IMG/VR virus record: IMGVR_UViG_3300021964_000728
Location: 1 to 20,278 of that record
Direction: 5' to 3' (one strand)
DNA length: 20,278 nucleotides
DNA from: a virus
The number at the start of each line of letters is the position of its first letter. Position 1 is the stretch's first letter. A program made the translations under genes and the position numbers. Below the pieces are notes generated by a model. It was not told the DNA's origin and did not search any database. It was given only the letters and a program-made list of their open reading frames with translations. Positions 4,730 to 20,278 of the stretch are shown here, piece after piece.

Positions 4730-5404
4730 TCAGGTCACCGGTACCTTTACTTGCCCAGACCGGTAAGCATCTTGCCGCTCAAGGCCATCGCCAAGACGTT
4801 TAGCCAACATCAATGCTTCTTGGTACTTAGCGTTGTACAACTGAAGTAAATCTGGCTCGCCCTTCATAAACGTATAGGCTTCAACCAACGAGCCGTACAA
4901 CAGCACTGAATCGAAGTTATCCCCAAGCCAAGATGTGCCAGAAGAAGCGACGCTAATCGACTCTGGGTAGTAGTAGAAGTGTAACTCTACGGTGTACCCA
5001 CTATCAGGTGTAGGGCCCAAAATAAATGACAACTCGTTTGTAATTGCCGGACTAGCTCCGGACGTAGTTGTCGGCCCAAAAAGAGCGTAGTATTTTGGGA
5101 TGCCAGTAGAGGCGGGGTTTGGGTACGCCTGCCGGATAAAGTTAACGTCCTTGTTTAGCAAGTACTCGTAGTTACCACTACCATCAACTACGGCCAAAGA
5201 ATAGGGCGCAAGAAAGTCAGATGGTGTGGAAAGGTACTTATTGCCGTTGGAAAGGACAGCGGTCATATTTTTCCGCAGTGACGGAAACTGAACGCTATTG
5301 AATACCCGCTGCTCAGCCTGCTGTACAAACGTAGCAAGCTCAGTCGCACTGAAAGTATTTTCAGTGTAATCCTGTATAGCAGTTGTTAACGCGGCGTAGT
5401 TCAT
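4730..5404 (-). CDS. Head-tail adaptor / tail tubular-like protein
   Basis: This is a 224-aa protein starting MNYAALTTAIQDYTENTFSA and continuing TELATFVQQAEQRVFNSVQF PSLRK. The pattern of a helical N-terminal segment with 'IQDYTEN...FVQQAEQRI...PSLR', a beta domain with LSFILGPTPDSGYTVELHFY YYP and a C-terminal helix with LLQLYNAKYQEALMLAKRLG is what I know from phage neck proteins related to gp11-type tail tubular or adaptor proteins. It probably joins the portal-adaptor ring to the tail. The gene follows the 53-aa gene with a 1-base gap between stop and ATG. Length is normal for the family. Assignment to a particular ring (first or second adaptor) is inference. Confidence 0.75.
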   Translation of the reverse strand: MNYAALTTAIQDYTENTFSATELATFVQQAEQRVFNSVQFPSLRKNMTAVLSNGNKYLSTPSDFLAPYSLAVVDGSGNYEYLLNKDVNFIRQAYPNPASTGIPKYYALFGPTTTSGASPAITNELSFILGPTPDSGYTVELHFYYYPESISVASSGTSWLGDNFDSVLLYGSLVEAYTFMKGEPDLLQLYNAKYQEALMLAKRLGDGLERQDAYRSGQVKVPVT

Positions 5405-5405
5405 G

Positions 5406-5567
5406 TTATGCCATTGGGCCGCGAGCCATCACACCTTTAGTAGCCGCCCCATTACCGCGAGTTTTAACCCCGGTAGTTTTAACCCCAGTCTCGGGGTACC
5501 CTGCTGTTTTAGGCACGGGGACCGGTTTTGGTTGTTGGTATTTGTTTAAATCTGCGGTTTTTTTCAT
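5406..5567 (-). CDS. 53-aa 'TKGVMARGPMA' small phage protein
   Basis: ATG 5567 lies 3 bases after a full TAAGGAGTT ribosome site and opens 53 codons ending TAA at 5406-5408. The N-terminus is Lys/Gln/Pro-rich (MKKTADLNKYQQPKPVPVPK). The C-terminus has a Lys-Thr-Gly-Val repeat, then GNGAATKGVMARGPMA. The 'GxGAATKGxxxRGPMA' ending recurs in very short proteins of other aquatic phages, always near the neck genes as far as I remember. It is strongly basic and probably disordered. Function is unknown. Possibilities are a small virion peptide or a DNA-interacting tail peptide. It lies between the zinc-ribbon gene (10 bases before) and the adaptor gene (1 base after). Confidence 0.8.
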   Translation of the reverse strand: MKKTADLNKYQQPKPVPVPKTAGYPETGVKTTGVKTRGNGAATKGVMARGPMA

Positions 5568-5576
5568 ACTAACTCC

Positions 5577-5912
5577 TTACGATACGGTCACCGTAACAGT
5601 GCCAACTGTACCTGAAGATTGCACTCCAGACAAGGGATTAAAAGTTCCGGGGATATACCGGGACGAGGTTACAACGTTTTGATAATTTAGAGAGCGGTCG
5701 GGGCGTGGGTTCATAATTGCCTGCGGATCAACCACGGGGTATTTACCAACTTTATACTGCGGGTGATCTTCTTCCCAGCACTGGGTACAAACCTGAAGAT
5801 TAGTCGGAGCCTCGTTAATTACCAACTCTTTAAGGGTCTTACGTTTATAGCGGAATCCGCACCGGTCGCACTCGGCGAGGGTGTGTTTACCTTGGGCGTA
5901 TTTAGAAGACAT
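5577..5912 (-). CDS. Zinc-ribbon phage protein
   Basis: This is a 111-aa protein with MSSKYAQGKHTLAECDRCGF, Cys 15 and 18, and a second pair Cys 42 and 45 (LQVCTQCWEEDHP). This makes a four-cysteine zinc ribbon in the first 50 residues. The part after residue 50 (YPVVDPQAIMNPRPDRS, then a Thr/Val tail) is probably extended. Similar proteins beginning 'SSKYA...DRCGxRY...' lie beside head-tail adaptor genes in other phages. Their function is unknown, although the ribbon suggests a structural metal in the virion neck or an internal DNA contact. The gene begins 6 bases after the adaptor stop and has only a weak GGG-type ribosome site. Confidence 0.75.
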   Translation of the reverse strand: MSSKYAQGKHTLAECDRCGFRYKRKTLKELVINEAPTNLQVCTQCWEEDHPQYKVGKYPVVDPQAIMNPRPDRSLNYQNVVTSSRYIPGTFNPLSGVQSSGTVGTVTVTVS

Positions 5913-13438: not shown

Positions 13439-13852
13439 TTACGCTCGTGAGATTCCACGGGGGTCTTCCACAACTGCTTCAACCGAATCATCGTTAATGA
13501 TGCGGAATTCACGGCCATGAATCTTCAGGCGGGTGCCTGAATTGGGTCGCACGACGATGAAATCGCCCTGCTTACACGACGGTCCACTGGGGAACCGAGT
13601 CGCATCTTTATACGCATCAGGACCAACTTTTACGACAAACAATACGGGGGTCAAAACCTCTTCGTAATGTAGTGTAGAGCCAGCTTTAATAATGCCACTT
13701 TCACTTTCAGCGAACTGCTCTATTGCTTCTGGAACAACGCACAGAAGATGGTAAGTTCTGGGGTCGGGCAACTGTTTGGCTTTCTCTTCAGCGGAGGTAT
13801 TTAGTACCTTCGATAAATCAATAGCCGTAGCGTCAAACTCAGTCGTCGTCAT
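13439..13852 (-). CDS. GroES-like co-chaperonin
   Basis: ATG 13852 is preferred over an upstream in-frame ATG at 13900 because GGAG lies 7 bases before it and none is near 13900. The product is 137 aa. From residue 30 the chain follows the Cpn10 fold: RTYHLLCVV, a loop-like acidic segment with SGIIKAGSTLHYEEVLTPV, then LFVVKVGPDAYKDATRFPSG, CKQGDFIVVRPNSGTRLKIH and GREFRIINDDSVEAVVEDP. The 'VVxVGPDA...GDxIVxRxNSGTxxKIxGxEFRxIxDDxVxAVVEDP' pattern matches phage GroES-like proteins. It would pair with host GroEL to fold the capsid protein. Position between portal and scaffold supports this. It overlaps the preceding 66-aa gene by 14 bases. Confidence 0.85.
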   Translation of the reverse strand: MTTTEFDATAIDLSKVLNTSAEEKAKQLPDPRTYHLLCVVPEAIEQFAESESGIIKAGSTLHYEEVLTPVLFVVKVGPDAYKDATRFPSGPSCKQGDFIVVRPNSGTRLKIHGREFRIINDDSVEAVVEDPRGISRA

Positions 13853-14039
13853 TGGAATGCTCCATTCTTTGCACAAGGTCTCTGACAATAGACTCTGCAT
13901 GCGTAAGACCCCGGATTACGCCACAGAGATACCGATACTCAGCGTAATCCGCTGCTCTACCGATGCTTAAAAAATCGCTCTGCTCTTGGCGGAGCTTGTC
14001 GAACTCCGTCAGCAGGTAATGAATTACTTTGTCGTCCAT
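13839..14039 (-). CDS. 66-aa protein between portal and GroES-like gene
   Basis: This is a short helical, mildly acidic protein, MDDKVIHYLLTEFDKLRQEQ, then SDFLSIGRAADYAEYRYLCG and VIRGLTHAESIVRDLVQRME. Two amphipathic helices separated by a short loop are likely. The ATG directly abuts the portal stop (TAA then ATG), with only an A-rich site upstream, so translation is probably coupled to portal synthesis. Proteins with a similar 'GxAxDYAEYRYLCGxIRGL' element occur near portal genes in other aquatic phages in my memory, with no function assigned. A role in portal ring formation or connector assembly is possible but not shown. Confidence 0.7.
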   Translation of the reverse strand: MDDKVIHYLLTEFDKLRQEQSDFLSIGRAADYAEYRYLCGVIRGLTHAESIVRDLVQRMEHSNDDD

Positions 14040-19194: not shown

Positions 19195-19212
19195 GCCCTA
19201 ACTTGTTAGGGC
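19195..19212. promoter_or_regulatory. Palindrome site 1 (upstream of early promoter)
   Basis: GCCCTAACTTGTTAGGGC is an 8-base inverted repeat with a TT centre. An additional half site GTTAG at 19191-19195 gives three alternating half sites (GTTAG, CTAAC, GTTAG) spaced 7 bases apart. It lies 45 bases before the extended -10, where an activator or repressor could bind. Confidence 0.8.
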
Positions 19213-19256: not shown

Positions 19257-19265
19257 TGTTATAAT
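19257..19265 (+). promoter_or_regulatory. Extended -10 promoter, plus strand
   Basis: TGTTATAAT is a perfect consensus -10 (TATAAT at 19260-19265) with a TGn extension. There is no good -35 at 16-18 bases, which is tolerated for extended -10 promoters. The predicted start near 19272 gives a leader of about 65 bases before ATG 19339 and lies between palindrome sites 1 and 2. Confidence 0.75.
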
Positions 19266-19301: not shown

Positions 19302-19319
19302 GCCCTAACAAGTTAGGGC
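19302..19319. promoter_or_regulatory. Palindrome site 2 (5' leader of early gene)
   Basis: GCCCTAACAAGTTAGGGC is the exact reverse complement of site 1. It is 30 bases past the predicted transcription start and 19 bases before ATG 19339. It could act as a DNA operator blocking elongation, or as an RNA hairpin (7 pairs, CAAG loop) near the ribosome site. Confidence 0.8.
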
Positions 19320-19338
19320 TACTTTCCGAAGGTCAATG

Positions 19339-19953
19339 ATGAAACAAGTAAATGTAACCCCAGTTGCCCAAGCCGCCGCTATCGTGTCCAATGCCCCGTC
19401 TGCTGTCGTCAAGGCTCGCGGCGAAGCTGTCGCTGTATCGGTCGAAGTCGAAAAGATCAACCGAGTCGGTCATGCGGCGAATCGTGTCTACGGCGAAGCA
19501 ATGGCGCTTTGGGCTTTCCAAATCGCGCCGTCCGTCAAGTGGCATGAAATGACGTTCGATCAGTTGAAGGCGGCGAACAAGGATCTATTCGCTGAAGCTA
19601 AGGCGTTTCGTTCCGAATACGTCACGACTAATATCTCCAAGGTCTGGTCTGACATTAAAGGCTATGCGGCTGAATTCATCAAGTCGCGCCCTGATATGTG
19701 CGAAGTCTACTATGGGGTCGCCGAGTTGGTCGAGCTGGACGCCGAGGAAGACGGCGGCGAAGGCGAAGGCAACGCACCTCGGACGGCTGACGAAGTGATT
19801 CGATCTTCCAAGAAAAACGGCGGCGTGTGGCTGTATCGTAATCTGTCCAAGCGTGACGGTCTGACTGGTAATCAGGCTACATTCTTGGGTGAGTTGCGCG
19901 ATTCGCTCAAGCACTACGGTATCAGCGAAGCTGAGTTAGACGGTAACGCATAA
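19339..19953 (+). CDS. 204-aa early-region protein of unknown function
   Basis: I chose ATG 19339 over ATG 19336 because AAGG at 19329-19332 then has a 6-base spacing; the difference is one Met. The 204-aa product begins MKQVNVTPVAQAAAIVSNAP. It has a helical middle (VEVEKINRVGHAANRVYGEA MALWAFQIAP, then AEAKAFRSEYVTTNISKVWS DIKGYAAEFIKSRPDMCEVY YGVAEL). An acidic Gly linker follows (ELDAEEDGGEGEGNAPRT), then a C-terminal helical part (DEVIRSSKKNGGVWLYRNLS KRDGLT). I do not recognise it. Codon choice (many GTC, GCG, TCC, CGT) looks more GC-rich than in the late genes. It has its own promoter and terminator, so it is a single-gene early unit, possibly regulatory. Confidence 0.75.
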   Translation: MKQVNVTPVAQAAAIVSNAPSAVVKARGEAVAVSVEVEKINRVGHAANRVYGEAMALWAFQIAPSVKWHEMTFDQLKAANKDLFAEAKAFRSEYVTTNISKVWSDIKGYAAEFIKSRPDMCEVYYGVAELVELDAEEDGGEGEGNAPRTADEVIRSSKKNGGVWLYRNLSKRDGLTGNQATFLGELRDSLKHYGISEAELDGNA

Positions 19954-19964
19954 CATGTTAGGGG
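19951..19964. promoter_or_regulatory. Palindrome site 3 (overlaps stop and terminator)
   Basis: TAACATGTTAGGGG contains the palindromic core TAACATGTTA and, with GGGG, matches half of the site 1/2 consensus. Its first three bases are the stop codon of the 204-aa gene, and its last bases are the left arm of the terminator. It is the exact reverse complement of site 4. Confidence 0.75.
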
Positions 19965-19995
19965 AATAGAGCTCAGAGCTCTGTTCCCCTTTTTT
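19960..19995 (+). terminator. Intrinsic terminator between the two plus-strand genes
   Basis: AGGGGAATAGAGCT pairs with AGCTCTGTTCCCCT (14 pairs, one G-U) across a 3-base CAG loop, followed by TTTTT. It lies immediately after the 204-aa gene and 25 bases before ATG 20020, so the downstream gene depends on read-through unless a promoter is hidden here. Confidence 0.9.
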
Positions 19996-20019
19996 GTACT
20001 TCAATTAAAGGACAATATC

Positions 20020-20211
20020 ATGCAACAACTGGAATTAGACTTCACACCTGACGTGTTCGATCATGAGGAAATTATTGATTCGCTCGAATCGGTAAGCCTA
20101 GAAGAAAATCAGGATAGCACCTACGGCTACCACTATAACCCTGACGCCTCGGTCTACTCTTATACAAGCTGGTTCTATGACAACGATGATTCTGCCTTCT
20201 CGGTGATCTAG
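20020..20211 (+). CDS. 63-aa very acidic protein, no Lys/Arg
   Basis: The protein starts MQQLELDFTPDVFDHEEIID and ends in a Tyr/Asp/Ser-rich stretch (STYGYHYNPDASVYSYTSWF YDNDDSAFSVI). It contains about 15 Asp/Glu and no Lys or Arg, so the pI must be very low. AAAGGA lies 8 bases before ATG 20020. Small, strongly acidic early phage proteins often mimic DNA (for example T7 Ocr) or bind host enzymes. That is only an analogy; no sequence similarity is claimed. The gene lies between two intrinsic terminators and between palindrome sites 3 and 4, as an isolated cassette. Confidence 0.75.
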   Translation: MQQLELDFTPDVFDHEEIIDSLESVSLEENQDSTYGYHYNPDASVYSYTSWFYDNDDSAFSVI

Positions 20212-20234
20212 TCGGCGAAACCCTCACTCACACC

Positions 20235-20258
20235 ACCCGCCACTCGGCGGGTTTTTTT
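20235..20258 (+). terminator. Intrinsic terminator after the acidic gene
   Basis: ACCCGCC pairs with GGCGGGT across a 4-base ACTC loop, followed by seven T. It lies 24 bases after the stop of the 63-aa gene. Confidence 0.9.
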
Positions 20259-20264
20259 CGCCTA

Positions 20265-20278
20265 CCCCTAACATGTTA
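20265..20278. promoter_or_regulatory. Palindrome site 4 (cut by the window end)
   Basis: CCCCTAACATGTTA is the exact reverse complement of site 3 and contains the same TAACATGTTA core. The window ends at the last base of the core, so the right flank is unknown. It lies just after the terminator of the acidic gene. Confidence 0.75.

Follow-up and report, generated by a model that had tools for sequence, protein, structure and literature searches.

A 63-residue, strongly acidic phage protein without lysine or arginine is encoded by a lineage-restricted gene under purifying selection

The window analyzed in this study is the whole 20,278-nucleotide stretch of the viral record IMGVR_UViG_3300021964_000728. 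The last 1.1 kb of the window contains a gene for a 205-amino-acid protein, followed on the same strand by a much smaller gene that starts with ATG and encodes the 63-amino-acid acidic protein MQQLELDFTPDVFDHEEIIDSLESVSLEENQDSTYGYHYNPDASVYSYTSWFYDNDDSAFSVI. These genes, the terminators, promoter-like box, and palindromes that accompany them, and an additional unit present in the related locus L002 are listed in Table 1.

Table 1. Features at the acidic gene in the window and in the related viral contig L002
Feature	Position	Strand	Evidence or remark
Palindrome CCCTAACTTGTTAGGG	19196..19211	.	Upstream of promoter
Extended -10 promoter-like box TGtTATAAT	19257..19265	+	Upstream of 205-aa gene; candidate from sequence comparison
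Palindrome CCCTAACAAGTTAGGG	19303..19318	.	Leader of 205-aa gene
205-aa gene	19336..19953	+	Upstream neighbor of acidic gene; predicted all-helical
Palindrome copy	19948..19963 (core 19951-19960)	.	Overlaps stop codon of 205-aa gene; left arm imperfect
Terminator hairpin between 205-aa gene and acidic gene	19960..19990	+	-23.9 kcal/mol, z -5.8
Ribosome-binding site AAAGGA	20007..20012	+	7 nt before ATG; sequence and alignment
Acidic protein gene, 63 aa	20020..20211	+	ORF; composition; codon-level purifying selection versus L002:4050-4241
Terminator hairpin 3' of acidic gene	20235..20252	+	
Palindrome copy after second terminator	20266..20278 (core 20269-20278)	.	Cut by contig end
Extra promoter/36-aa ORF/terminator unit	L002 4283-4515		

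An exact count gave 15 aspartate or glutamate residues and no lysine or arginine in the acidic protein, in agreement with an earlier note on this DNA, together with 2 histidines and 11 aromatic residues (F, W, or Y), and the pI is 4.05. Residues 1 to 31 hold 10 of the acids, and residues 32 to 63 hold the other 5 as well as 9 of the 11 aromatics, so that the C-terminal half is indeed as rich in aromatic residues and tyrosine as the same note had described. Among 1,211 gene models from the window and related phage loci, the protein ranked second in net negative fraction. Only 4 of the 318 models of 40 to 100 amino acids are free of lysine and arginine, the acidic protein included, and the other three are hydrophobic and membrane-like. 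With the lysine-plus-arginine frequency of 11.9% obtained from five genes of the phage, the chance of finding neither in 62 residues is approximately 4e-4. The composition is unusual, not unique.

The only carrier of the gene besides the window among the viral contigs was L002 (IMGVR_UViG_3300021961_008573), where it is 87% identical. The sequence at the ribosome-binding site, GTACTTCAATTAAAGGACAATATCATG, is the same in the L002 alignment, and the start and stop codons are conserved. The two copies differ at 33 bases, 4, 4, and 25 of which are at the first, second, and third codon positions, respectively. These differences replace 8 amino acids, compared to a mean of 21.7 and a minimum of 14 when the same differences were placed at random (5,000 trials). 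The dN/dS ratio (omega) is ∼0.04; for the same pair of sequences, it is 0.027 in the terminase large subunit and 0.19 in the 205-aa neighbor. Synonymous divergence was 1.5 in the acidic gene versus about 0.5 in the neighbors, which may be noise due to the small size of the gene or may reflect a separate exchange. An antisense ORF at 20072 to 20227 was ruled out as a gene because its omega of 2.7 is that of unconstrained sequence. The idea that the 63-aa ORF arose by chance can draw on its being an orphan in every collection searched except for one contig, but the codon pattern has already refuted it, and the conserved translation signals also count against it, leaving it virtually no probability. 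Thus, judged by codon-level comparison, the ORF is a real gene that has been maintained by selection in a pair of related, uncultured phages.

Selection may not have acted evenly along the protein. Of the eight replacements, seven affect residues 1 to 31; residues 32 to 63 change only by D57E (Fisher P = 0.026) and remain identical at 31 of 32 positions despite saturation of their synonymous sites. Each of the 15 acidic positions also has Asp or Glu in L002 (13 identical, 2 D/E swaps). As far as two sequences can hint, the Tyr-rich half looks like a specific interface, and charge has been kept where the residues around it have not. Because constraint is mainly in the Tyr-rich C-terminal half, which has 5 of the 15 acids, charge is not indicated as the chief selected feature.

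The earlier note had recommended remote homology searches and structure prediction. No family match above chance was found in PHROGs, Pfam, NCBIfam, or PADLOC, collections in which anti-CRISPR and other antidefense proteins are poorly covered, PADLOC being devoted to defense rather than counterdefense proteins. Sequence comparison with the PDB likewise gave no match, the best being a cold-shock-like protein (E = 0.83) and a centrosomal protein (E = 2.1), and tblastn against a phage collection produced only a chance match to Stenotrophomonas phage Philippe (E = 2). Scans of the viral contigs with peptide patterns, alignment, terminator DNA, and a degenerate motif returned L002 alone, and one scan of the genome contigs did not recover the protein. 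Two short matches from a profile search of 50 related records, 24 residues (E = 0.002) and 23 residues (E = 0.02) in length, are inside longer reading frames and were taken as chance.

The AlphaFold model built from the two sequences has a pLDDT of 57 and a pTM of 0.21, with its best block (pLDDT, 74) at residues 41 to 50, and is too poor for a surface charge pattern to be read from it. At this low confidence, a helix is predicted at residues 15 to 22 and strands at residues 33 to 40 and 45 to 52, which would form a beta-hairpin in the Tyr-rich half. Foldseek found no match to the model better than an E value of 0.8 in the PDB or BFVD, and VIA-align returned nothing at a Z of ≥2, as expected for such a poor model. 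The recommended check yielded no homologue of known function and a model of low confidence. The two outcomes that had been named beforehand as counting against DNA mimicry, a fold without a negative surface pattern and a homologue among metabolic or structural proteins, were not obtained either.

The gene had been described as an isolated cassette between two terminators and two operator-like palindromes. Hairpin terminators do lie on both sides. The L002 counterpart of the first has a quite different stem sequence yet still forms a hairpin followed by a T run, which suggests that the hairpin itself has been kept. Both palindromes are also present, although the left arm of the upstream copy is imperfect and the downstream copy is truncated. 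However, the cassette is probably not transcriptionally isolated. A stretch of 24 nt separates the T run of the upstream terminator from the start codon, and no promoter was recognized there; the acidic gene is thus probably expressed by read-through from the 205-aa gene. A private promoter was considered less likely, as 24 nt leave no room for one if the start codon is to be transcribed. The likely source of the transcript is the TGtTATAAT box, which was missed by a consensus promoter scan but is inside an ∼46-bp block that also precedes the 36-aa ORF of L002.

The second terminator occurs once in the window and twice in L002, where a promoter, the 36-aa ORF, and a terminator copy form an extra unit placed exactly between the two terminator repeats. 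Such units may be gained or lost via recombination between terminator copies. Because the product of the 36-aa ORF ends in FYGYAI, sharing YGY as well as the terminator with the acidic gene, paralogy of the two proteins was considered, but their similarity was not significant (shuffle P = 0.11 to 0.16), and only the terminator is called duplicated. The 205-aa gene also has a further, diverged copy in L002, on the opposite strand (5273 to 5656; 128 amino acids, cut by the contig end).

Relatives of the 205-aa gene were found at about 43 other loci, nearly all of them upstream of terS and in the opposite orientation to the terminase, and the acidic gene is absent from all of the loci searched other than L002. 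Three residues of the 205-aa family, W69, E87, and W104, are near invariant. The model of the 205-aa protein (pLDDT, 84) consists entirely of helices; its best PDB match (Z = 5.0 over 91 residues) is in the range of common helical arrangements, and matches in a viral library had E values of 0.5 or worse. At locus L048 (contig G023, 63 kb), the arm headed by the 205-aa gene leads, on the same strand, to genes for an AAA ATPase, a DUF2201 (VWA-like) protein, a family A DNA polymerase, a PD-(D/E)XK nuclease, and a helicase. By synteny with such uncultured relatives, from which its early timing is also deduced, the acidic gene is most likely the second gene of an early/replication arm. The slot that follows the 205-aa gene is filled with small genes that differ from one phage lineage to the next, a pattern expected for accessory genes. 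A small CxxC protein (..WKECIDCGDD..CLFCGE..VQEYTKGNYQ..TLKQTNPKE) that looks like a zinc-binding early protein is widespread within ∼1.5 kb after the 205-aa gene (L048, L034, L018, and others). Elsewhere in the window, a GroES-like co-chaperonin is encoded between structural genes (13439 to 13900, minus strand; phrog_3188, E = 1.6e-8).

The palindromes at the acidic gene belong to an array. The TAAC..GTTA core occurs four times in the last 1.1 kb of the window and seven times in L002, and arrays are present in 15 loci with the 205-aa family, L002 included. In the other fourteen loci the sites are two bases longer, TAACA..TGTTA (TAACANNTGTTA), and occupy corresponding places, as though the protein that binds them had altered its spacing. 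In thirteen of these loci, 128 sites were counted over 81 kb of early arm versus none over 136 kb of late arm. In these 13 loci, 69% of the sites are between gene models, although intergenic DNA makes up only 25% of the early arm, and about one-third precede a start codon by no more than 60 bases. No regulator was identified for the array, and the stretches of DSL-LC04 and HTVC027P that were read contain no such palindromes. Mycobacteriophage stoperators are repressor sites spread over the genome (PMC9283540). The array resembles them in its spread, but stoperators are asymmetric whereas the array sites are palindromic. This phage-wide, stoperator-like array may be more deserving of attention than the acidic gene.

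The small size and strong acidity of the protein, and the place of its gene near the promoter end of a likely early arm, are compatible with a host-inhibitor or antidefense role, and several known phage proteins invite comparison. Ocr (gp0.3), the type I restriction inhibitor of T7, is acidic and is encoded near the start of the T7 early region, where the acidic gene is likely to have a similar position in its own phage. The uracil-DNA glycosylase inhibitor p56 of phi29/PZA is of similar length, is also acidic, and has a tyrosine that is important for its function. However, neither of the p56 motifs, F-X-D-S-Y and E-X-X-Y (PMC10303552), is in the 63-aa sequence. The Ugi/SAUGI motif, E-[ASVFHTNI]-[LVIFMT] in the first beta-strand (PMC10303552), is matched by ESV at residues 23 to 25 of the window protein, outside the predicted strands of the poor model, and L002 has ESA there. 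The DNA mimic gp5.9 of T7, a RecBCD inhibitor, is another very small phage protein with a pI of about 4 (4.0; PMC9836394), but it is a parallel coiled-coil dimer, whereas the low-confidence prediction for the 63-aa protein shows a single short helix and a hairpin. Ocr has 116 amino acids, 34 acidic and 6 basic (PMC4872106). Sequence similarity of the 63-aa protein to gp5.9 or Ocr was not detected in the PDB search.

A different kind of likeness is offered by HTVC027P, which also has small orphan genes beside its terminase genes. These genes, gp30 to gp34, are adjacent to terS/terL, several of them opposite to the terL strand; for the minus-strand genes gp33, gp34, and gp30, expression is early to middle or early and late, and every gene of the early cluster is of unknown function (PMC12753301). 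However, HTVC027P is a distant cultured relative from another phage group, with a different gene order, and no homologue of the 205-aa gene or the 63-aa protein was found in the phage collection.

These considerations suggest, with about even confidence, that the acidic protein is a lineage-restricted host-interaction protein, encoded by an accessory gene close to the promoter side of the early (replication) arm of an uncultured tailed phage. Transcription would begin at the promoter that precedes the 205-aa gene and continue through the hairpin into the acidic gene. The product would be a small protein that binds a host protein stoichiometrically; its near-invariant Tyr-rich half, with the predicted beta-hairpin, would give specificity, and the acidic N-terminal half would attach to a basic surface, for example a site that binds nucleic acids. 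Consistent with this possibility are the purifying selection on the gene, its second place in an arm that the 205-aa gene opens beside terS, the variable contents of the slot, shared in the case of the acidic gene by L002 alone, the modular unit of L002, and the early-to-middle expression of small genes near terS/terL in HTVC027P. Against it count the want of a homologue of known function or a reliable structure, the dependence of early timing on synteny with uncultured relatives and of conservation on two sequences, and the strong hairpin before the gene, which could mean low expression.

It is also possible, but unlikely, that the protein acts within the virus, for example by regulating or chaperoning a phage protein involved in replication or transcription. 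Its place in a likely replication arm and probable cotranscription with the 205-aa gene would fit such a role. However, in all other loci searched, the 205-aa family and the replication genes are present while the acidic gene is missing, and the acidic protein is therefore no core component.

A true DNA mimic, in which carboxylates arranged in a phosphate-like pattern block a DNA-binding host enzyme (restriction, CRISPR, a RecBCD-type nuclease, or uracil-DNA glycosylase), seems quite unlikely. The strong excess of Asp and Glu over Lys and Arg that marks this class is found in the 63-aa protein, which comes close to the pI of gp5.9 (PMC9836394), stays acidic at every acidic position in L002, and is encoded close to the promoter side of what is probably the early arm. 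However, the acidic half is the less conserved one, the p56 motifs are absent, the Ugi-type motif is not retained in L002, no fold match was found, and the model is unusable for charge mapping. Similarity to a solved structure of the class was not found in the PDB sequence search either, although membership of the class does not require it.

Even more doubtful is a largely disordered acidic peptide, a charge buffer or decoy whose exact structure matters little. The low AlphaFold confidence and the simple composition of the acidic N-terminal half are what such a peptide would show, but the near invariance of residues 32 to 63 implies a specific structure or interface.

The kind to which we assign the acidic gene is the ordinary one of lineage-restricted small phage accessory genes, and not that of "DNA mimics." A more ambitious version of the host-interaction proposal, which we consider rather improbable, is that an acidic helix and an aromatic beta-hairpin make up a new fold that blocks a nucleic-acid-binding enzyme of the host, encoded in a terminator-bounded slot for exchangeable early host-takeover genes. 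Among the sources of host inhibitors are the small early genes that phages carry next to a conserved landmark. If such genes generally occupy the slot after the 205-aa gene, candidates could be listed across the phage group. In the case of the 63-aa protein, both the fold and the target would be new.
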